Source: Gamsiella multidivaricata
Lineage: Eukaryota > Mortierellomycota > Mortierellomycetes > Mortierellales > Mortierellaceae
DNA: 64,000 nucleotides
Direction: 5' to 3'
NCBI RefSeq assembly: GCF_025024155.1
Contig: NW_026251796.1
Coordinates: 1-64,000, forward strand
Position numbers and translations under genes: made by a program. Of this stretch, positions 31,284 to 43,262 are shown one piece after another (within the stretch, counting starts at the first letter, position 1; every line of letters starts with the position of its first letter). The notes beneath the pieces are model-generated. The model saw only the letters and a program-made list of their open reading frames with translations. It had not been told where the DNA came from and ran no database searches.

Positions 31284-33073
31284 CTATAGATCTGCGACGA
31301 CCGATCCCGCAGAGGAAGCAACCCCGATCCGCTTAGACTTCTTGTCCAACCTTCTGAAGAAAACCCAGGCAGAGACGCAGATCGCTCCCATAAGCAGAGT
31401 GCCACCTGCAGTCATGATCACCGGCAGATACGAGAGATTGGGCTTCGTGCCATCCAAAATCATTCCCGCAACAGGAGCACCGGCCAACATGCCGACTCCG
31501 CTGGCCGCGTACATGAACCCGATCACGGTCGAGAGCTGGTGCGCTCCAAAGGTCTCGGAGAGGACAAGGGGTACCAGAGACACGTAACCGCCGGCGAAGA
31601 AGCCGTAGAGGATCGCAAACAGGAGGTAGACCCCAAAAGACTTGGAAAATGTCCAGATGATCAAGACCGAACCCGCCGTCATCCAAGCACAGCAGCTAAC
31701 GACCACGGTCTTGGGGAGACGGTCTGCAGCGTAACCGAGGACGATCCTGCCGAGGCAGGAGGCACCACTGGAAAGACCAGCGATCAAGGCACCGTCCTGG
31801 GCGGTCAACCCAATGAACAGACTGTAGGCTACAAATGAACCAGATGCAAATGCAAATAGCAAGAAAGGTCAGAACATCGGATCTGAGATGCTTGAAATAA
31901 ATCAAGCGCACTCGCATTATCCATATGGAGAAAAAAAGGCTTACTCTGGAAGTAGTACATGGGAATGAGGAACCCAATCGAGGCCGTGAGTTCTGCAAAG
32001 GTCAAGGACAGGAACTGGGGGTTCTTGAACACCTTGAGCTCCGCAAAGAAGCCGGCCACGCCAGTAGGCTTCATTTTCTCAGGAGACAACTTCTCGTTGA
32101 TCTGACCAATCTCCACGTCGGTCATCGCAGGTGAGGGTTCAGGGACCTTCTTACCATTCTCTCGCTCGGCGATCAAGAAACTGGCGCCGCCGCTATTGCC
32201 AAAGCAAAACAGTAAATGAGTAAAAAAAAAAAAAAAAAAAATCAAGTGGATAGTGTTAGTCTTTGCAGCAGTAACATATTATGATGAAAGAGGCGAGCGA
32301 CATGGAGCATGGACTAACTGACTGATTACATACCAGACAATGACGCAGAAAAGCGCGAGGGCACGAAGTGTCCAGCCGACGCCGAGGGCATCAATCAATC
32401 CCTGGGTAGCAGGCGCAAGGCCCAGTCCACCGAGTCCGGTGCCGCTGACAGCCAGGCCGAGGGCGAGGCCACGCTTGGCGTCGAACCAGTGTGAGGGTGC
32501 ACCGATCGCAGGGTAGTAGACCAGGGAGGCACCGATTCCAAAAAGCACACCCTGGGAAAGGTATAGTTGCCAGACCTGGGTCGCGAACGACGCCAGGAGC
32601 AACGCAACGGCCATCACAGCAGTGCCCAGAAGAGCGGTGAAGCGGTACCCAAATTTGTCGGCCGAGGCCCCGCTCACGAAGCCGGCAAAGTAAGTTGTGC
32701 TTGAGCCCAATGTCCCGATGAATGCAATGGAACCGTGGCTTGATGATGGGTAGAGTTCCAGGTAATGATTCTCGAACATGCTAAAGATGTACTCGGTAGG
32801 TGCGAAACAGAAACAGTGGATCAGGAAGCTCCCGAGGACGACAAGCCATGCACGGAGACCACCATCAGGCGCACGGTCCGAGATGTCGACCAGGGTGGGC
32901 GACTGACTGATCCCGATGAAGGAGGGTGCTGTGGACTTGACACATTTCTCGGCCGAGGACGATGGGGGGAGGAGTGTGTTGGTACGGGTGGTATAGATTG
33001 CGTGGGCAGGGGCGATCTCGCAGGACGTGCGAGGGGTCTCATCGACGTCGCGGCATGTCTTTGTGGTTGCCAT
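31284..33073 (-). CDS. MFS monocarboxylate-type transporter
   Basis: Three exons: complement(join(31284..31828, 31945..32192, 32334..33073)), 510 aa. It belongs to the same family as the neighbour: APDGGLRAWLVVLGSFLIH, FAPTEYIFSMF, LYLSQGVLFGIGASLVYYP and GLALGLAVSGTGLGGLG, with twelve likely membrane spans split by a central loop rich in Lys and Glu (MTDVEIGQINEKL). The short N-terminal tail makes it of ordinary length. Its second intron lies at a position equivalent to that of the 814-aa paralogue, so the pair is a tandem duplication followed by gain of a tail in one copy. The transported solute is not evident. A TATAAAAA sits on the minus strand at 33268-33275, about 195 bp upstream. Confidence 0.88.
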
Positions 33074-33267
33074 TTTCGTGTGATTTAATTCCTTGAGGTA
33101 TTACAACAGGTAGCGCATGCAGCTTTGTTGACAGAAATGGCTGTGCGTGTATGTACAAAAACAGATGGGATGCAACCGGATGAGGCCAAGGGAGAGAGGA
33201 AATGTATGAAGATCGAATGAAAAAAAAAGAAGAAAGGAATCTTCCTCCTTGGCGAGTGCGGGCTACC

Positions 33268-33443: not shown

Positions 33444-35027
33444 ACGGGCTGAGCTGGCCTTGAATGTAGTTTCTATTCATACCGTGTGTGTGTGTATGTA
33501 CCCGACTGATTGCCGTTAAGTGGGTGCATCCACTGCTGCCGCCAGAGATGCTTGCCCAAAAAGGAAGGTGCATTGTTTTGTCCCACGCATGGACAGCCCC
33601 TCCTCCCGGCACAGATTTATTTTTCAACCGCAGCCAGGAAGAGGATGCACTTCGGAGCGTGAACTCTCTTTCTTCGCTCGCTCGCTCGTTGCTGTCTCAG
33701 CCTGGTCTTGCCCGGGGTCATCAATCGACCCATCTCTATATTTCAACTGCAGCCGAATGAGGACCCTATTCTACCAATAGCCTTTATCCTTCGAGGACAT
33801 GGTCCACTCTCACCGAAAAAAAACAAAAGAAAAAGGCCATGCAGATAGACTCCAAATGAGCATGGAACTTTGGCCACGTTGAAAGAAATCTGGGTCAGTA
33901 GGCTATTGGTGAGCAAAGCACCCTTCTTCTTACACCCACAAGTGCATGCATTGCCCAGGTTAGACTATCATGTGTTTTGAATAGCCGCCTGAAATAAATG
34001 CGTCGTCTAAAGTCCACTTTAAACCTCGCATCATAACTGGTTCATTTTGCATGCAAAGGGAACCAAAGCGAACCCAACTAGGTATATGTCCCAGAAAGCT
34101 GTAAACGTTGGGGTGACACTGTAAATGATAGGCCTCAAGTCGCTGCGACATCTAGCACCCAGATGGCGAAAATTCGGAAATCATTTCATCTTCTCGTAAA
34201 GTCCATATTCATTTGCGTTTGCAGATCGATTGCACAAAATGCAGTGTGTTCAACGCCCGTGCAGCGGGAACCCCCCGACGAGGTTTACATTGACAGGTGC
34301 AGATACACCGTCCTTGCTATGATAGAGTCAAAATCAGCAAACAATGGTACGGTGATCAATGAGTGATCCGACGACCGCGAGATAAGCACACTGCTGAGGA
34401 GGATAGCCAGGCTCTCTTACTGCTCTTGCAGACAACGGAATATGAATGTATACTTGAACAGCTGCTCCTGGCTCACGCCCAGACTGAGGATCTCGACGTG
34501 GAGAGAAAGATGCAGAGAGGGAAGCGTGGGCAGGAATGGAGTGGTTGCCCTTGCGGCGGTGTTCTCTTGACAACCACCTTTCTCCATTCTCACTCATCGT
34601 CCCCCTCAAGCTCGCAAAAACCCTACAACCTCAAAATGTGGTGTCGAAGACCGTAGACCCTTAATGTACCTCGAATGTAGAACCTTGTCTATTTTACAAT
34701 CGACACAGTGTTTCTTGTACGCGATTCTTGTATACACCGAGTTACAAAGGGACAATTACTACAGTTTCAATAGCTATCGCGTTTCTTTTTTTTTTATTGG
34801 ATCTTCCAACCATTTCGAGCTCTGGAATTTCTATCGAAATTCAGACTGGAAGTCCACTCCTCCTCCTGATGAATCCTTATCGGACCCAGAGTACAGAACA
34901 ATTCAGGCTCAAATACGTCATAGAACGAACGCATCCTCGCAAGAAAGCATCTGAACTGTAGTGTGCTTGCTGACACACATTTATCTACATAGTCTATAGT
35001 CGCTTGGCGCCAGGATTTCCATCCCTT
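33444..35027. other. Intergenic region
   Basis: No supported gene, tRNA or intact element. Short open frames have no motif. It separates the transporter pair from the decayed mobile-element region. Confidence 0.4.
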
Positions 35028-35358
35028 CTATGGGTGAGGCTGCTCGCTTGCGTCCTCCAGCTCGTCCTTGCCCTTGCCCTTGTCCCACGACGCTACTGCG
35101 CTACTGCTGTTGCTGCTACAGTCCCTGGCTTCTGTTTGTGGTCTTGCATCTCGCATCCAAGGGCAGTGCCCGTCCTTATCTGCTGGTTGAAGACAGAGCG
35201 GTCGCTGTTGATAGGGTAAATGGCTGCGAATGACGTTGCAAATGTTATGCCTTGCCATAATATCGCGGTGTATGAAAGTGTCGCAGATTGAACAGTATAG
35301 CCTACGGATCTTGACCTGTCCGAAACTACTCATTCGCCCCAACTACGATGTAGCCTAG
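35028..35358 (-). pseudogene. C-terminal piece of a TnpB/Fanzor-like nuclease (zinc ribbon and RuvC-III)
   Basis: On the minus strand the piece opens with LGYIVVGANE, then hits a stop. In another frame it continues GQVKIRRLYCSICDTF, HRDIMARHNICNVI and a tail of about 60 residues. The CxxC knuckle followed by a basic His-Arg-Asp and an Asn six residues later is the pattern of the TnpB/Fanzor zinc ribbon leading into RuvC-III. The preceding NE matches the position where Fanzor proteins carry an alternative catalytic Glu. The first CxxC knuckle is lost in the frame break. The missing upstream portion (RuvC-I and II) lies on the same strand at 37740-40362, about 2.4 kb away. Confidence 0.65.
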
Positions 35359-35390
35359 GGGCCTGGATATAATTCATACTTCTCATATAG

Positions 35391-35756
35391 CTAACCTTCT
35401 ACCCGGAGGTCAATCTCGCTGGTAAGCAAGTCTACTGCTCCTGCTCGCACTGCTTCTGGAACTTTGCTTGTAATTACGCGGTGGTACTTTTCCTTACAGG
35501 TGGCGATGAATTCGCCAGTGTTTTGCAGTCTCAAAGCCTCGGCATCATTCTGTTTCCGGCAGCCATGAACGTGGTTCATATAGCAGAGAAAGATCGAGCG
35601 AAAATCCTAGTGCATGTAAAGATCCTGTAAAACATATTCAGAGAAGTCCAACATTTGGAATAGACTTGTGTTGCGGTTGACTCCGACGCTGCTTCTATTA
35701 CGATTGTGAAAATTGAAAGCCGGGTTGAAGGACTCTCTGACGAATACGTTAGATGG
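35391..35756 (-). pseudogene. Unidentified coding remnant
   Basis: A minus-strand frame of about 120 codons with one internal stop (near 35610). It contains VFVRESFNPAF, FLCYMNHVHGCRKQ and EAVRAGAVDLLTSEIDL. Its composition looks protein-coding, not random, and it lies just before the Fanzor-like zinc-ribbon piece. I cannot name the family. It may be part of the inserted DNA or the 5' part of another mobile-element protein. Confidence 0.4.
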
Positions 35757-35815
35757 CTAGATTATCAGAGGAATCTGTCAAGTCTCTTCCCATCACCAAA
35801 AAGGTCTACAAAGAT

Positions 35816-35939
35816 CAATTGAGGCATAAGGCGGCAATGTTCCCCCGTCCTCCAAGAGGGTCGACCATTCAACTTGAAGGTTCATGTGGGCTCGACCGCT
35901 TTTAGAACTGCCACATTTGTGGTCAACGTTCACCATCAA
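35816..35939. repeat. 124-bp direct repeat, copy 1
   Basis: Begins CAATTGAGGCATAAGGCGGC and ends TTCACCATCAA. By eye about 11 of 124 positions differ from copy 2 and no gap is needed. Flanked on both sides by ATCAATTGA-like sequence. No coding sense is seen. Confidence 0.8.
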
Positions 35940-35994
35940 TTGACCCAAGGCAAAAAAATAACAAACAATCAAACAAAAAGAGATCGACATTGAC

Positions 35995-36118
35995 CAATTG
36001 AGGCATAAGGCGGCAATGTTCCCCCGTCCTCCAGGAAGACAGACCATTCAACTTGGAGGTTCATGTGGGACCGACCGCTTTTAGAACTACCACATCTGTG
36101 GTCAACATTCACCATCAA
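35995..36118. repeat. 124-bp direct repeat, copy 2
   Basis: Second copy, offset by 179 bp from copy 1 in the same orientation. Both keep TTCATGTGGG and CCGCTTTTAGAACT, and both can form a short ATGTGG/CCACAT stem. It may be the end repeats of an insertion or a tandemly duplicated non-coding element. Confidence 0.8.
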
Positions 36119-36279
36119 CCAATCCAATGAGTGAATAACATAAGGGGAAGCACAAATTACACAACCAAGCGGGCAACCTCCTACCTTTGTCGCTGTGAAA
36201 AGAGATTTTGGATTAACGCGGTGCTGTATGGCTTTAAATATGAGCCAACTGGTTGCACTTCTAAGGAGATTCGCGTGGT

Positions 36280-36305
36280 GTGTGTGTGCGTGTGTGTGTG
36301 TGTGT
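36280..36305. repeat. GT microsatellite
   Basis: A (GT)n run upstream of the Crinkler-like pseudogene. An alternating CG run lies nearby at 36437-36451; both can adopt Z-DNA. Confidence 0.7.
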
Positions 36306-36579
36306 GAAGGAGAAAACAGAGAGAAGACAAACAAGGGACAATGAATGATGATGGGGGCGTGAGAGCGGTGGCAATGGTAATTAATAAGGTCAAAGGAGTG
36401 TGATGCCAGAGGCGAGAAAAGCGAAGGCGCAGTCACTGCGCGCGCGCGCGTACGACGTCGCGATATTTATTTCCCGGTCGACAAGAAATAAAGAGATATG
36501 ACTGTGCCTTTATTTTGCGCCGACCCTTTTTTGCCATCGTTTTGCATTTTCTTCTTCACCTTTGCCGCGATACCCCTTC

Positions 36580-36621
36580 CCTCGGCTTAATTCTTTCATC
36601 CCTCGGCTTAATTCTTTCATC
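36580..36621. repeat. 21-bp tandem duplication
   Basis: Two adjacent copies of a unit containing CGGCTTAATTCTTTCAT, followed by a decayed third. It lies in the leader of the Crinkler-like pseudogene. Confidence 0.7.
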
Positions 36622-36724
36622 CCTCGCCTTTTTCTTTCCATCCTTCGTCTCTTTTATCCCTCGCCTTCTGACTTCTTCCTTTTTTCTCGCCACATTTAAT
36701 TCTCTTTTGATGCTTCACAACACT

Positions 36725-37640
36725 ATGACCGACAACGACTTGACTCTATTCTGCATTGAGAATGGAGACTCTACGCCATTCTCTGTCGACATCGACCCAT
36801 CAAAGACTGTTGATCATCTCAAGGATGCATAGAAAACCCCTCGATTTGATGATGTTGCCGCCGATGAGCTCACCCTCTGGCGCGTTTCGATTCCTCTTGC
36901 TCCACTTAAGGAGCGCAAGCCGATTGTCCTGAACAATATTGATTCCGCGACAGAACTCGACCCAACAGATGACCTCTCTGATGTCTTTACCCACAAACCA
37001 CCAAAGAAAACAATTCAAATCATCGTCCAGCGACCACCACCAGGTAATGCCGCATTCTTTCCTCTCCACTGCACCATGCGCGTAAGCTTGTTATTGTACT
37101 AACCTAAATTCTCACGCTTAATTATCCAACACAGTCCATGCACCCGTCCCTGTTCGATTTCTTACCCCTGTTCCAGCCACTCCCTCGGATACTTCTCGTC
37201 CTAGAACGCCTTTGTCTGGTGAGTTCGGTCGTCAACTCTGTTTTTACGCCCATTTCTAATTGATTTATCTTTTCTCTCAACAGGGGACCTCAGAACCGAC
37301 ATCAAAAAGATCGCCTACCGATTCTTTGCAACCGGATCTCCAGCCTCTATCTTTCTGGACGCGTATGTGCGAGGAGAATTCAAGTTGCCAGTCACTACCG
37401 CCGGGATCAAGGGGCTACCCAAAGTACTGCTGCGAGGCGTTGTCGAAAGTCAGGATTCAGGACCAAGTCTTCTTTTTTTTGGATTTACCGAATCCTCCGT
37501 TAAAGGCTGGTGATCCTGTTCCTGAGAGGTTTCGGTCGAACGTTTTTTAAACTGGAAGGCATGCAGGCACAAGACCTCCCTGTATTTGGTGTCAGGTGCG
37601 CTCCTATCCTCAATGCATGACTTTGAAAGACTTGCTATGT
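36725..37640 (+). pseudogene. Crinkler (CRN)-like gene, broken
   Basis: The N-terminal part has the Crinkler ubiquitin-like/header layout: a short hydrophobic start, then FDDVAADELTLWRV, then DDLSDVF and PPKKTIQIIVQRP. An intron begins at a GTAATG donor near 37042, and further exons follow near 37136-37216 and from 37285. The third exon has the conserved SPASIFLDAYVRGEF and GLPKVLLRGV block that precedes an ATPase-like domain. Three breaks are visible: a TAG at 36830-36832 inside the header, a frameshift at a T-run near 37470, and loss of the frame soon after a PVFGV segment (about 37580) where a P-loop would follow. The C-terminal effector part is absent. Crinklers are known as host-directed or self-directed proteins in oomycetes and several fungi; this copy cannot make the full product. 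Confidence 0.7.
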
Positions 37641-37739
37641 TTACTCTGCTACTTCATGGACTAATGCGGAATATTTATGTCTATGACAAAGTCAATAAAA
37701 ACATAAAACAATTTTACATAACTTCGATTCTCAAGTGAA

Positions 37740-39723
37740 GTGCTCTTATCTTCGGAACAAAGTGCGACTGAAAGGACTCGTGCAAAGAGGAAAGTTCCAT
37801 CTTGGTCGAAAACTTACCACCCAGACCAACCCCATCACAACCTTGTTAGCTTCCTCTCTCTTTCTGCCGATCGATCCTCCGATCAACTTGAGTAGGTGAT
37901 CCGTTATGAGCCTGTGCTCCGCATCCCTGGCCCATCTCGTGTCCCACCTATGCTTCCTGAACCGGCTGTAAAATTCATTCAGCTGTCCCTCTACTCTCTC
38001 CAGTTCCGTAACATAGCTCGCAAAGCTAGCTCCCTCACTGTGCAGTGGTGGCTGCTTAGTCTCGATGTTACTGATGGATTCTATTCCATCATCTGGAACG
38101 ATGATTTTCTGCTTTTCCATTTATCTTCTGTGCTTGAACGTAGGCTGGTACACAGCCTTCTGCTTCACTGCGAGATTGTAATAGGTACGAGAACCAAAAG
38201 TAGGGGTTGTATCCTCGAAAGAACTGCTCATGTCGTCATCATCGTCCTTTCTTCCAGGTCCCGTTGTCGTACTGGCAGGATCATCGATCTCTGGTAGCAA
38301 TGCGCTAATTCCAACTACACGGATTTGGCTGAGATCGAGACCCAGGACCTTGATTTGATCTGGCCCACATCTGCAAAGATCGATGACATCCTGCTGGGTC
38401 TTCACAATGTTTCGGACCTCGGTCAACTAATAGTCCACTCCGCCGACTGTGGATGTGATTCGAAGGGCAAGATATTCTGCGAGAATCGCCTGCATCTGAA
38501 TGACTGTAATTCTTTTAACTTGAAGGTCGACAGATGGAGGCGGAAACCGTCTGTCCAAATGGGGCCTCGACGAACATAGCCGTGTCCCTCGTAGGTCATA
38601 GGATCGAATTTGGCCTGCCGAATGAGTTGAATGTGTTCTCGCATCATACTCAGGGCCATCACGAACGTCGATTCTTGCAATCTCTCGACCTTTTGCGTGG
38701 CTCACGCCTGTTGACGTTCGAAGGCATCTTCGTGATAAGGAACCCAGGAGCCTTCTGCCCAAGTCAATCGGTTAGGTTACCCTAGGTGGGAGCGCTGTTC
38801 TTGTTCTCAAAGTCCACCAGTATTAGTTCCTGAAGTTTTTTTCTTCAGCGCAGCGTTTTACCTAAACACGATACCAAACTCTTACTCAGAGAACGACATT
38901 AATGGCTGCTCTATGCCCATTAATGGGGTTGTCTGACGATAACTCTTGCTGGACTAGCTCAAAAGCATGAAATCTTCGATCGCTGGGATGTCTTGGTCTA
39001 TCTCTGTACGTGATCCATCTAATATGAGACCCTTCGTCTTCAAAGTCCTTGGCTATTATAGACAGATCGCCAATGTTAGTATTGTCGTTCTTACAGTATG
39101 CTCCTTGAGTCGAGTGCAAGGTTTGACGCGGGGGTTTGGTAAGAGACTGGGCAGGGTTCACCTCACTTGCAGCCCCTGCCTGATGTGGAGCAGGGTGGCC
39201 GGTCGTGCGATATCTGTTGAAAGTCTGCGAAGACTTGTGCCGCCGAGCCTTAGTACCGGTTGACTCGTTGTCAAAGCCATTAAAGTTGATAGCGATCTCA
39301 ATAAGCTAGTTAATTTTATGCATACCTTCATGCAGGTGGGGATTCTTACAAATCAAGGCAGTGTTTGACATTGCATACCTTCTCTCCGCCTCGCGTGCCT
39401 CTCGCACCTCCTTCTGCATTTGGGAGTACCGCTGAGAAAGACAGTCGAGCTGCTTCCAAAGGCTGTCATAGGTCATGGCAGCTTGAGCTGAGGACGAAAG
39501 GGGTGGGCCAATCTGCACAGGGTCCTCAAAGATCCACAAACGTCTCCTGGGTAGTATCCTTGCGCATGGCTTGATTGTTGCCAAGTAATGCTTCGTCATC
39601 GTCGCAGCCAAGGCGTTAGATTCTGCTATATGATGATCTGATTGATCTATTTACCTTCTCTATCCAGCCCTTCGATGATTTGTAATTAGTTGCACTTCCG
39701 AGAGAGAGGACGTTGCGGCTGTC

Positions 39724-39755
<32 letters not shown>

Positions 39756-40362
39756 ATGTGACGCTAAGTACTGTAAACTGGTCGCATAGACGCTTGGAAT
39801 GTTGTACACGAGGAGTTTCCTTTTAAGGTGGGTCGTTAAATGGTCTCGATGCTCTTGTACATGAGCATGTCGTCAGGCTTGCATTCAAGGCCTATCGTGA
39901 GATCTGCCTCGGTCGAGCATTCGACAATCGTCCACTGCTTCGTGTACATGTATACGGCAAAGGCGCTTTGAGCGTCTAGGGAGCAATAGAAGGCCGAGCC
40001 CAAGTGTTTTCTGATGTCGATGAACTGGTGTTTTCGCATGCGAAGCTTTTTATCCACGCGAACTTCGAGCATGCAGACATTTGTCGGCGCGCTCAACAGC
40101 TTCCTTGTGAAAGGTTCTCTCGGTACAGTTGAGTGGGTCCTTTTCCCTCCAAAGGAAGGCCATCCAGGTAAAGAATCAAGTTCGTCTGGGTCCCAAGCTT
40201 CAGTATCTCTCTCTCAACAATGCGGCGAGCATCGTCCGTAGGGTGCGAGGAATAGGCGCAGCGAACGGTGACATAAACAGACCCAAGGATATCGACTCGA
40301 CTCACCGAATTGTGATCAATGGAGCTGGGATGTTGGATAAGTGGGCGGTTGATTGCTCCCAT
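37740..40362 (-). pseudogene. XPG/PIN plus TnpB/Fanzor-like nuclease pseudogene, main part
   Basis: Minus-strand pieces in collinear order over 2.6 kb, starting MGAINRPLIQ at 40362. The N-terminal third resembles an XPG/FEN1-type PIN nuclease: RVDILGS, LILYLDG, then STEADLTIGLECKPDD, with a frame break near 40120. A linker with coiled-coil character (39.3-39.6 kb) and a poly-A (minus) run at 39726-39754 follow. The last third has TYEGHGYVRRGPIWTDGFRL and LKELQS, then DQIKVLGLDLSQIRVVG with a RuvC-I-type Asp at 38334-38336. NLAVKQKAVYQPTFKHRR is followed by a stop, and then comes KVVMGL where RuvC-II is expected. It carries at least four frameshifts or stops and probably a large internal deletion near 38.8 kb. 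The fusion assignment rests on collinearity and on memory of long Mortierella proteins of this build. Confidence 0.6.
39726..39754. repeat. Poly-T/poly-A homopolymer of about 28 nt
   Basis: Interrupts the XPG-Fanzor-like pseudogene on the minus strand between two segments that would otherwise read on. It could be slippage expansion or the tail of a retroposed insertion. Confidence 0.7.
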
Positions 40363-40511
40363 TGTGACGTCACTATTCTGAACTTCGAGTGGTGCAAGCA
40401 GTCTATACCTCGAAGTTCTCTTCGTATTTTTCACCTCCTTACACCTCCCCTCGGTTATCAAAGCAAAGCATTCTTTCTACACAGAGGCAGCCCACACTAC
40501 TGCTCTATTCG

Positions 40512-43262
40512 ATGGACAACCCTACACAGGCCCCCACCACCTTCAGCGCTCCACCCAATACGACTGTCACGGCTCGACAAAGGCTTTTGGCAGCATGTCC
40601 GTGCCTCAACGTCAAGCTGCACCTCGCTGCACAACCTGAGCAGGGCGTATCGATCGCAGGAAAAGAACTAAAGCTTGGACTGGCCGGTGTGTCTGTGGTA
40701 AGCTGCGTTCGGAGGCCGTGATCCCTGACCGCAGACGAGCATCCGTTGGCGGTTGTGGGGAGAGGCAGCTTTCGGGACTGATCCTAAACCCATTTCTATC
40801 GTCCTCGCTCGCTTTTCTCTTGTTCAGGAACAAAAAATCCTCTGCGGTCTCTCAATATCAAAGGATCTGGCCACGGCGCGGTGTATGAATTGCGATCAGG
40901 ACGTTTATATCTTCAAGCCAAGTTCCACCTCGGTCAACTTGGAGACTACCTCCTTGGCCTTTTTGGCCAACTCCGTCTTGTTCTCACCCTCGAACGGCAT
41001 TGTCGTGCCATCAGAAGCCGTCGTCACAGGGGAACGGATTGATGCGCTTGTCAATGATCCAAATTACTCCAAAGCCTTCCGACTCATCCTCGCACCAAAA
41101 CCTGCTTCCATCGGATCAGGCGACCACCCGACTTCTTCATCAGCCACGCCTGCAGCACCCCAGCCAAACGATATCCCATACCGACCCTATCTAGACAGGG
41201 TGCGCTCGATTTTGGACAAGGAACTCGAGTTGAATCTGAACGCACAGCAACAGCGAACAGAGGCCAGGATTGAAGCGTACAAGTCGCAACAATTGCTGGC
41301 ATTGCAAAAGTCGATGGAGAGCACGAGGCATGAAAAGGATCTTCTCTGGATCAAGATTCAGGAACGGGTCACGTCGCCGCCGCCTCCGGCACCCTCAACA
41401 CCCAGCATTGGAGAGTCAGGAAGTGCAGGCGCTCAAGGGAGCGGATCCGCTGACGCCAATGGCGGACAGTATGCCTTCGACGTGCCTGGCACTTTGCCCA
41501 TCCGACTCACAAGCGCCTCTCGGGTGGATGGGCCTCATGGCGCATTTCTGGACAGGAGAAAGGCATCGGAAACGGACGCGGCCATGTCGCTCCAGTTCAG
41601 AGAATTTGATCAGCAAATGGCCTCGAACAGTATGAGGCGACAGAGCCTTGTGCCTGTTGTGGTCCCGACACACGACGGGACGGACGATATCGCTGACATG
41701 ACCTTGTCCAACACAGCGACGAATGCGACCACCTCTACGGCTCTTGACCAGCCTGCCTCGAGCTCCTCGAATTCGGGAACGTCGACCCCAACATCAAAAT
41801 CGAAAAAGAAGGTGACCATCAGCGACGCAATTAAGAAGGTCTCAATCGTCGAGCCTGACGCAGGCAACTATGTGGATGGCAATGGTATATCTTTCAGTGC
41901 GATGGGTACTGGTTGTCCAGGACTTTATTGTGGTCAAAAATGGAAGAACTAACGCAGCTTTTGGATTATATAGATCAGAACAGTGATGAGGAGGATGGTG
42001 GAGACGAGGATGAAGGGGTGGTCTTTGATATGGACGAAGAGCTAGGATTCGACGGGGAAGGAGGAGAGGACGTCGAAGGAAACGAGGAAGGCAGCGAACA
42101 GGAAGACGGTATGGGTAGTGATGAAGACGATTATTCTACGCCCAGCAATAGCATCGCCATCAGCAACTCAGCCGGTCGTTCCTTGCCCAAATCCGGCATG
42201 GTCGTGGGCTCGCTCCGCGCAAACTATCTACGCCGTCAGAAGGGGCTTCAGCAACACAAGAGGTCACTCAACGAGGAAGAGCTTGATTTTGACGACGACG
42301 ACGAGGATGATGATGATGATGATGATGATGACAACGCCCCTGCGCCACCCGCAGCAGCATTCCTCGGCACGTCCTTGCCGATCCAAATCCAACCACGCCC
42401 CGCCAATCCCCTACCCCCTCCTCCAGCACGTACTTCGGCCCTTGCCAGCTCCTTGGCGATGCCTCCAGGATCATCCCCAGCAGCCGCCATGCTCCAGCGG
42501 AGATTGTCTCGTGCATACGGACCGGATCTCTTGCCTGACAGCAGCAGCCAGGGCAATAACAATACCAACATCGCGCGCTCATCGACCTTGGCATTCGCAG
42601 GATCTTACACCGACGGATCATCCCTTGCGCCTCCAGCTCCTGGGGGCATCGCTGGATCTCTGATAATTGATCCACTTATGCTGCTTGAGGAAGAGCACGA
42701 CAACGATGACCGTGAGGATCGTCTTCGAAAGCACCGACAGCCTTTCTCGTCCATCAACCACCGTCGCGATCTAGAGAGGAGTCAGCAGAGCCATAAGGAG
42801 CAGGACCCTACACCGGCACAGTTCAGGAACAATGGCGGTGCGATATCTTCGGTGTCGCAGCAGACGGATTTTGAGCCCCCACATCTGTATTCGGCAAGGA
42901 CCTATGTCGGCTCGACCCCATGGGAGATGCCGACAAGGATCACAGTCAAGACTGGAGGCATACAGCGTGAGGGCACGAACCTGGACAAGCAGATCGCGCT
43001 AGAGATGGCGAAGGAGCTGGAGCAGGAACGACTCGAGAAGGAGAAGGAGGCACATGAAGCTGCGCTTTTGGACAGGAGTAGTGCAGTGCAACGTGGCGTC
43101 CATAAGATCGACGAGGAGGAGGAAGAGGAAGAGGAAGAGGAAGAAGAGGAGGAAGAGATACTAGGACGGAGGCGTCAGGGTCAGCGGCAGCAGGAGGCGG
43201 ATGAATTACCGCCGCTGCATCCTCTCTCGACTGCAACAGCAAACGACATCGGTGATAGTTAG
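40512..43262 (+). CDS. PRAS40-like acidic/proline-rich protein (tentative)
   Basis: join(40512..40697, 40828..41884, 41947..43262), 852 aa; the second intron (62 bp) was chosen because it alone closes the frame. The N-terminus has CPCLNVKLHL and later ARCMNCDQDVYIF, possibly a metal-binding pair. A charged helix (about 190-260) follows, then Ser/Thr-rich linkers, an acidic segment with VVFDMDEEL (42021-42047), LRANYLRRQKG, a poly-Asp tract, AFLGTSLPIQI, and a C-terminal coiled coil ending in poly-Glu. FDMDE fits the TOS consensus that binds Raptor in TORC1 substrates. The FLGTSLPIQI and DPLMLLEEEHDND segments resemble proteins annotated as proline-rich AKT1 substrate 1 domain in Mucoromycota, as I recall them. 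If right, it is a TORC1 regulator; otherwise an uncharacterised conserved protein. Confidence 0.6.

Follow-up and report, generated by a model that had tools for sequence, protein, structure and literature searches.

The 64,000-nt stretch of the Gamsiella multidivaricata genome analysed here (contig NW_026251796.1, positions 1–64,000; hereafter the window) carries on its minus strand, at 34889–40344, a decayed copy of one long protein in which an XPG/FEN1/EXO1-type nuclease is followed by a linker and a Fanzor-like core made up of a WED domain, a split RuvC and a zinc ribbon. It is probably a dead copy of a Mortierellaceae DNA transposon encoding a single XPG–Fanzor-like protein, whose RNA-guided cut and 5′ trimming would promote copying of the element by recombination. 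Both the fusion and the conservation of the two sets of active-site residues are evident from sequence and from predicted structure.

A tblastn search of window 34000–42000 with eight homologous proteins, picked from a set of 47, gave matching pieces running collinearly from 40344 down to 35127, with residues 17–1224 of the homologue P0002 covered in order (best E-value 1.3e-54). Neither 20 mononucleotide shuffles of this region nor its reversed sequence gave a match at E ≤ 1e-3, and the line-up is therefore real rather than due to chance. The first-pass annotation had described one long decayed minus-strand protein here from six motifs (RVDILGS, LILYLDG, TEADLTI, LGLDLSQ, CSICDTF and HRDIMARHN), all of which are found on that strand. 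From the N-terminus onwards (minus-strand coordinates, with P0002 residues in brackets), an XPG N-region remnant at 40114–40344 that retains the aspartates of RVDILGS and LILYLDG (17–98, 50% identity, E 1.4e-17) overlaps an I-region remnant at 39830–40171 that contains TEADLTI and has paralogues genome-wide (81–201, 46% identity, E 7.9e-20). The portion of the linker that follows the XPG domain lies at 39126–39527 (317–412, E 6.5e-15), and residues 413–695 have no window counterpart at E ≤ 1e-3. The Fanzor-like half comprises a REC/WED part at 38462–39049 (696–889, E 2.8e-23), the WED with a WTDG motif and RuvC-I (LGLDLSQ) at 37827–38606 (844–1111, 44% identity, E 1.3e-54) and, ahead of the zinc ribbon, the last part of the RuvC segment at 37738–37884 (1099–1140, E 9e-5). 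On the far side of a 2.4-kb stretch that splits the remnant, sequence and tblastn place the stretch LGYIVVGANE, at the position of the glutamate called E-alt, at 35305–35367 (1137–1157), after which the TS motif and the first CxxC are lost; the second zinc knuckle (CSIC) and the RuvC-III D (HRDIMARHN) lie at 35133–35321 (1164–1224, 59% identity, E 1.7e-20).

The window copy is dead. Its pieces are spread over different frames and separated by stops, residues 413–695 have no counterpart, the 2.4-kb stretch sits inside it, and the TS motif and first zinc knuckle are gone; the glutamate ahead of these and the second knuckle are kept. The splitting stretch, 35367–37738, is read as a later insertion separating the RuvC part from the zinc ribbon; it lies outside the protein, as indicated by the tblastn gap and by its own content, namely a Crinkler (CRN) N-terminal-domain fragment on the plus strand at 36740–37030 (PF20147, E 7e-8 and 8e-11 for two open reading frame pieces scanned as separate proteins) and two 151-nt direct repeats at 35798–36127 (86% identical, 179 nt spacing). 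The interval first proposed, 35028–40362, stands as a collinear remnant, with the corrections that the element extends slightly further, to a right end near 34889, and that the inserted stretch does not belong to the protein.

Homologues carry both domains in a single predicted protein, in line with the fusion that the first-pass annotation had supposed from the collinear pieces. The twelve most complete relatives (12/31 aligned) are 1,166–1,335 residues long, extend from the XPG part through the zinc ribbon and have all ten catalytic residues of both sites; they come from Benniella, Linnemannia, Entomortierella, Mortierella, Dissophora, Podila and Gryganskiella. More broadly, the named protein relatives come from Mortierella and other Mortierellaceae genera (by taxonomy look-up, Dissophora, Benniella, Haplosporangium, Actinomortierella, Modicella, Gamsiella, Podila, Gryganskiella, Entomortierella and Linnemannia). 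No close relative without the XPG half was found outside Mortierellaceae among the best 120 of 160 matches, considering those named by organism, the shorter of which were not checked for XPG loss. At E ≤ 0.01, Pfam recognises PF07282 in 23 and XPG_I in 14 of the 31 members; PF00867, PF12813 and PF07282 are listed on one chain in P0004 (Benniella), as are PF00867 and PF07282 in P0058 (Mortierella alpina; among the matches listed, the best 120 of 160). A family profile matched RAD2/FEN1/XPG/EXO1 with its N-terminus (best E 3.3e-13) and, weakly, the TnpB-like nuclease LaTranC with its C-terminus (E 0.0037). Neither of the two outcomes set beforehand as refuting the reading, a lack of homologues with both domains in one frame or a lack of any profile match, was thus obtained. 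The three window pieces scanned alone gave no Pfam match above threshold (PF07282 at 0.076 for the zinc-ribbon piece, and no XPG_I match at E ≤ 0.1). A search of the protein database with the alignment A1 as profile returned 8 matches only, presumably as common words filled the candidate list, and it was the single-protein searches that were informative. One predicted model has structural matches to both EXO1/FEN1 and Fanzor. Divergence in one half is correlated with divergence in the other (Mantel r 0.73, p 1e-4, over the 18 proteins that have both), as expected for an old single fusion.

The first ~300 residues of the family protein are predicted from sequence and structure to form an XPG/FEN1/EXO1-type 5′ nuclease domain, which upholds the initial reading of this half. 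In an alignment to RAD2, FEN1 and XPG, seven carboxylate positions, which we take to be the metal-binding ones of the XPG family, are nearly invariant across the aligned members; the FEN1 and EXO1 residue numbers used in the scripts are likewise presumed. The predicted model has the XPG/FEN1/EXO1 family fold, with 16–20% identity to EXO1/FEN1 in structural alignments. EXO1 and FEN1 tie as structural neighbours, and the fold therefore does not decide between resection and flap removal. Five family loci just pass in a genome search with XPG_I (25.5–26.6 bits, cut-off 24.9).

The remainder of the protein is a Fanzor-like core with WED, split RuvC and zinc ribbon. In the Fanzor motif of Bao and Jurka, as given in the available part of their text, D-x(125,275)-[TS][TS]xx-C4 zinc finger-x(5,50)-RD, the TS–C4–RD part is present under a slightly looser expression in 26 of 47 proteins, many others being partial or changed there. 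E-alt, defined in the accessible text of Yoon et al. (PMC10711439) as a glutamate six residues ahead of the first zinc cysteine, is present in 22 of the 23 members with a residue at that position, and its spacing from the RuvC-I D is 149–253 residues where both are found. The TDG motif in WED is described in the same text as a Fanzor1 trait; its second position is D in 25/31 and N in 6/31 members, and the window open reading frame has WTDG. The predicted model also shows the Fanzor1 arrangement of REC, WED, RuvC and zinc ribbon. DPG at RuvC-I, which has been called near-exclusive to Fanzors, is the remaining fingerprint of Yoon et al. Judged by motif, E-alt, TDG and predicted fold, the C-terminal half resembles Fanzor1; judged by DPG, which is absent in 27/30, it is not a strict Fanzor. 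For this reason we use the label Fanzor1-like, a refinement of the TnpB/Fanzor assignment first made from the letters.

Searches of the Gamsiella genome (37.5 Mb in 180 contigs, the window lying on the contig that we number C168) place the remnant in a dispersed family. The window XPG-like piece gave 72 matches, or 60 loci after dropping 12 fragments of the same loci, and the zinc ribbon PF07282 gave 109. At 32 of the 60 loci a zinc ribbon follows downstream on the same strand within 6 kb, at 3.1–3.9 kb in 24 of them, compared with 8 pairs at up to 6 kb whose orientation or side is wrong; the window locus, absent from the PF07282 matches, is not counted among the 32. Full-length P0002 likewise gave ordered N- and C-terminal matches, for example on contigs C118, C97, C122, C96, C93, C19 and C111 (37/526 candidates scored). 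Many copies of one subfamily (B, below) are without the XPG half, at least partly an assembly effect, as contigs C33 and C121 stop ~2 kb upstream of the zinc ribbon.

Near-identical copies fall into five subfamilies, in each of which similarity stops at one sharp right end beyond which every copy has its own flank: A (L045, L047–L049), B (L052, L058, L060–L063), C (L044, L050, L054), D (L053, L059) and E (L055–L057). TGACGTA or a near variant begins 31–35 nt before the right end in every one of them. A genome scan for the C-type motif found 8 places, 5 of which lie 280–540 bp downstream of a same-strand zinc ribbon, and none for the reversed pattern. In the window, the motif common to other copies, TGACGTATTT, lies at 34911–34920, to the right of the coding remnant, and by motif and layout the minus-strand segment 34889–35000, with a hairpin of the GTGTG/CACAC kind followed by a terminal stem that includes this motif, is the putative end of a guide-RNA scaffold; its limit near 34889 is approximate, as no near-identical copy fixes the exact end. 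The first hairpin (GTGTG/CACAC or similar) and the terminal stem recur across several subfamilies, and in 5 of 8 representatives the final 110 nt form a more stable fold than their dinucleotide shuffles (z −2.1 to −4.3; 14 control segments gave −1.1 to +1.8). A separate test found 3 of 8 segments no better than shuffles (z −0.4, −0.95 and −1.2); in the former test, z was −0.3 for the final 60 nt of C_L054 taken by themselves. These z-scores and controls were used in place of covariation, the alignment of seven ends not being reliable enough for counting pairs. At six loci with element ends, the window not among them, no Rfam match was accepted; the one match, SNORD70 in L065 (E 0.82), is below threshold and falls on a small inverted-repeat insertion, which leaves no known RNA family there. 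TTGACTTC was considered as the left end of A-subfamily elements and dropped, since some copies share sequence further to the left.

The copy on contig C122, itself 7,740 bp long, has an exact 9-bp duplication, GCTTGGATG, on its two sides, against a chance expectation of 0.06 exact matches. By eye, the left end of the C122/C101 copies is similar to the right end in inverted orientation. Of the 10 copies tested, 8 others show no duplication immediately behind the right end, in several cases because no left end was available for comparison; scattered matches with one mismatch, lying a base or two beyond, are at chance level. A divergent upstream gene is present in some copies, among them L068 (B), where an open reading frame with a similar start was recognised by eye. 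PF10551 has 8 genome matches, all >10 kb from any zinc-ribbon match. Our best guess from this analysis is a Mutator-like element, because of the C122 duplication, weak MULE and SWIM signals in the upstream gene and the known MuDR-type Fanzor elements with 9-bp duplications. The two-nuclease mobile element of the first-pass annotation gains support from the dispersed copies and their ends; mobility rests on these and not on a proven transposase.

Some further features accompany the copies. Four A-subfamily loci (L070, L071, L011 and L013) have a common 4.6-kb 3′ part and two alternative 5′ flanks. An inverted-repeat insertion of ~110 bp, resembling a miniature inverted-repeat transposable element, occurs at L065 6038–6140 and L012 3193–3311 (83% identical) and breaks the zinc-ribbon exon in L065. 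A 516-residue open frame at L065 2–1549, just upstream of the XPG–Fanzor copy on contig C98, has a weak DDE_3 transposase match (E 0.0037, below the cut-off) and possibly belongs to a separate element. In the window itself, a fragment of a major facilitator superfamily transporter lies at 32282–33100 on the minus strand (PF07690, E 4e-13).

In Fanzor and TnpB systems, RNA from the right end of the element together with its flank provides the guide, and the site without the element is cut. As a likely role for the fused protein we infer RNA-guided cutting combined with 5′ processing at the break, by which copying through recombination would be favoured. The right-end RNA would be the guide scaffold and the flanking host DNA the guide, to which the shared and often folded right-end motif points indirectly; the Fanzor half would cut the allele without the element; and the fused XPG/EXO1-type nuclease may trim the freed 5′ end, as a flap or a recessed end. 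Such trimming would expose 3′ single strands and steer repair to copying of the element from the intact donor, whereby the element would be kept or spread after excision.

Several observations weigh against this reading. Each of the eleven genomic copies inspected (L009–L013, L064–L069) has at least one stop, frameshift or insertion. Pfam is weak on the XPG half, single exons of L064, L065 and L012 scoring below the XPG_I cut-off with unrelated families scoring similarly, and the RuvC-I residue that is P in DPG is P in 3 of 30 members, L in 23, A in 2, G in 1 and M in 1 (mostly DLG). A strict scan allowing one mismatch sees the right-end motif in only 15 of 20 zinc-ribbon loci; it was not found in L046 and L051 among these 20, and that of subfamily E (TGACGTC, TGGCGTC) was recognised by eye only. 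Folding of the right end is less clear in D_L053 (z −1.9) and no better than in shuffles in D_L059 (−0.3) and the window copy (−1.3), and the transposase might instead be what uses a folded end, in the form of DNA. An exact target-site duplication was seen in one of ten copies tested, with an 8-of-9 match in C124 at chance level (~0.8 expected), and the transposase signals in the divergent upstream gene (MULE E 0.11 in L012 of subfamily C; SWIM E 0.017 in L011 of subfamily A) are both below the cut-off. The break-resection role is itself drawn by inference only.

A stronger version of the same idea, possible though short of probable, is a self-contained cut-and-resect homing machine, in which an RNA-guided cutter and an EXO1-like 5′ nuclease in one protein would resect the break in the empty allele at once and have it repaired by copying of the element; this would amount to a gene drive of natural, eukaryotic origin that brings its own choice of repair pathway. 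Rather unlikely, in our estimate, is that the fused nuclease serves the element's own steps, by trimming the displaced non-target strand in the R-loop, maturing the guide RNA or processing flaps at the staggered 9-bp cut of the transposase. XPG-family enzymes act on 5′ flaps and bubbles, and non-target-strand cutting in an R-loop and staggered insertion both leave ends of the kind that they use; the right-end kind common to the copies and the one copy with a 9-bp duplication also fit. We prefer resection that favours copying of the element over maturation of a cleavage or transposition intermediate. A merger by annotation pipelines of neighbouring XPG-like and Fanzor-like genes of one transposon would account for proteins that look like automatic predictions (hypothetical proteins), for partial entries that stop near RuvC-I, such as P0028 and P0038 (named Rad2 nuclease), and for three of six loci (L068, L066 and L010) in which a script removing a GT–AG intron found no junction. 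Such an artefact is nevertheless very improbable, as the same script joins the XPG exon to the linker exon in frame in L012 and L065 (in L009 the exons join, with a stop just after the junction), the alignment is continuous through the linker in proteins of several genera, and the halves co-diverge. That the XPG-like half has a structural or nucleic-acid-binding function and no catalytic one, as its patchy Pfam recognition and strong divergence from host XPG enzymes might suggest, is hardly credible given the near-invariance of seven metal-binding positions for which an inactive module has no need.

Fanzor, an RNA-guided nuclease with which eukaryotes cut DNA, attracts wide interest, and its use to the transposons that carry it is an open question. 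The natural fusion to a repair-type 5′ nuclease, in which Mortierellaceae conserve the catalytic residues of both halves, suggests a step that follows the cut, and the homing question thereby becomes open to direct tests. The fusion would also give a precedent in nature for combining, in one protein, a programmable cutter with an end-resecting enzyme. No paper on an XPG–Fanzor fusion, on Fanzor or TnpB in Mortierella or on Fanzor under the search term Mucoromyc- was found in openly searchable full text, subscription papers lying outside that scope; broader literature searches, judged on the entries listed (10 of 1,342 in one case), likewise showed none, and the available parts of PMC3627910, PMC10432273, PMC10711439 and PMC11423790 describe no such joint protein. 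Each half is of a known kind; the joint protein was not found described, and the fusion is already present in automatic annotation, where P0004 and P0058 carry both domain labels.

Among known systems, the MuDR-type Fanzor1 elements ROr-4, PBl-3 and MCi-4 (Rhizopus, Phycomyces and Mucor) also come from early-diverging fungi and have 9-bp target-site duplications; in the available text (PMC3627910) they are without a gene for MuDR transposase and nothing is said of an XPG domain, whereas here a weak MULE-like gene lies divergently upstream in subfamilies A and C and, by eye, B. The A-subfamily copies, with a constant 3′ part and a variable 5′ side, resemble the MCi-2 Fanzor1 family of Mucor circinelloides, described in the same text as having a near-identical 3′ part and variable 5′ regions; MCi-2 differs in its 11–12-bp duplications, its lack of terminal inverted repeats and its partial Crypton transposase, again with no XPG domain mentioned there. 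Most Fanzor1 proteins have 600–700 residues and a conserved domain organisation, and no second nuclease is named for Fanzor1 in the accessible part of PMC11423790. Compared with SpuFz1, GtFz1 and PpFz1, the family described here has an XPG-type nuclease preceding the core and mostly DLG at RuvC-I; compared with the XPG, FEN1, EXO1 and Rad2 5′ structure-specific nucleases, it has that domain fused, within a transposon, to a nuclease of the RNA-guided type.

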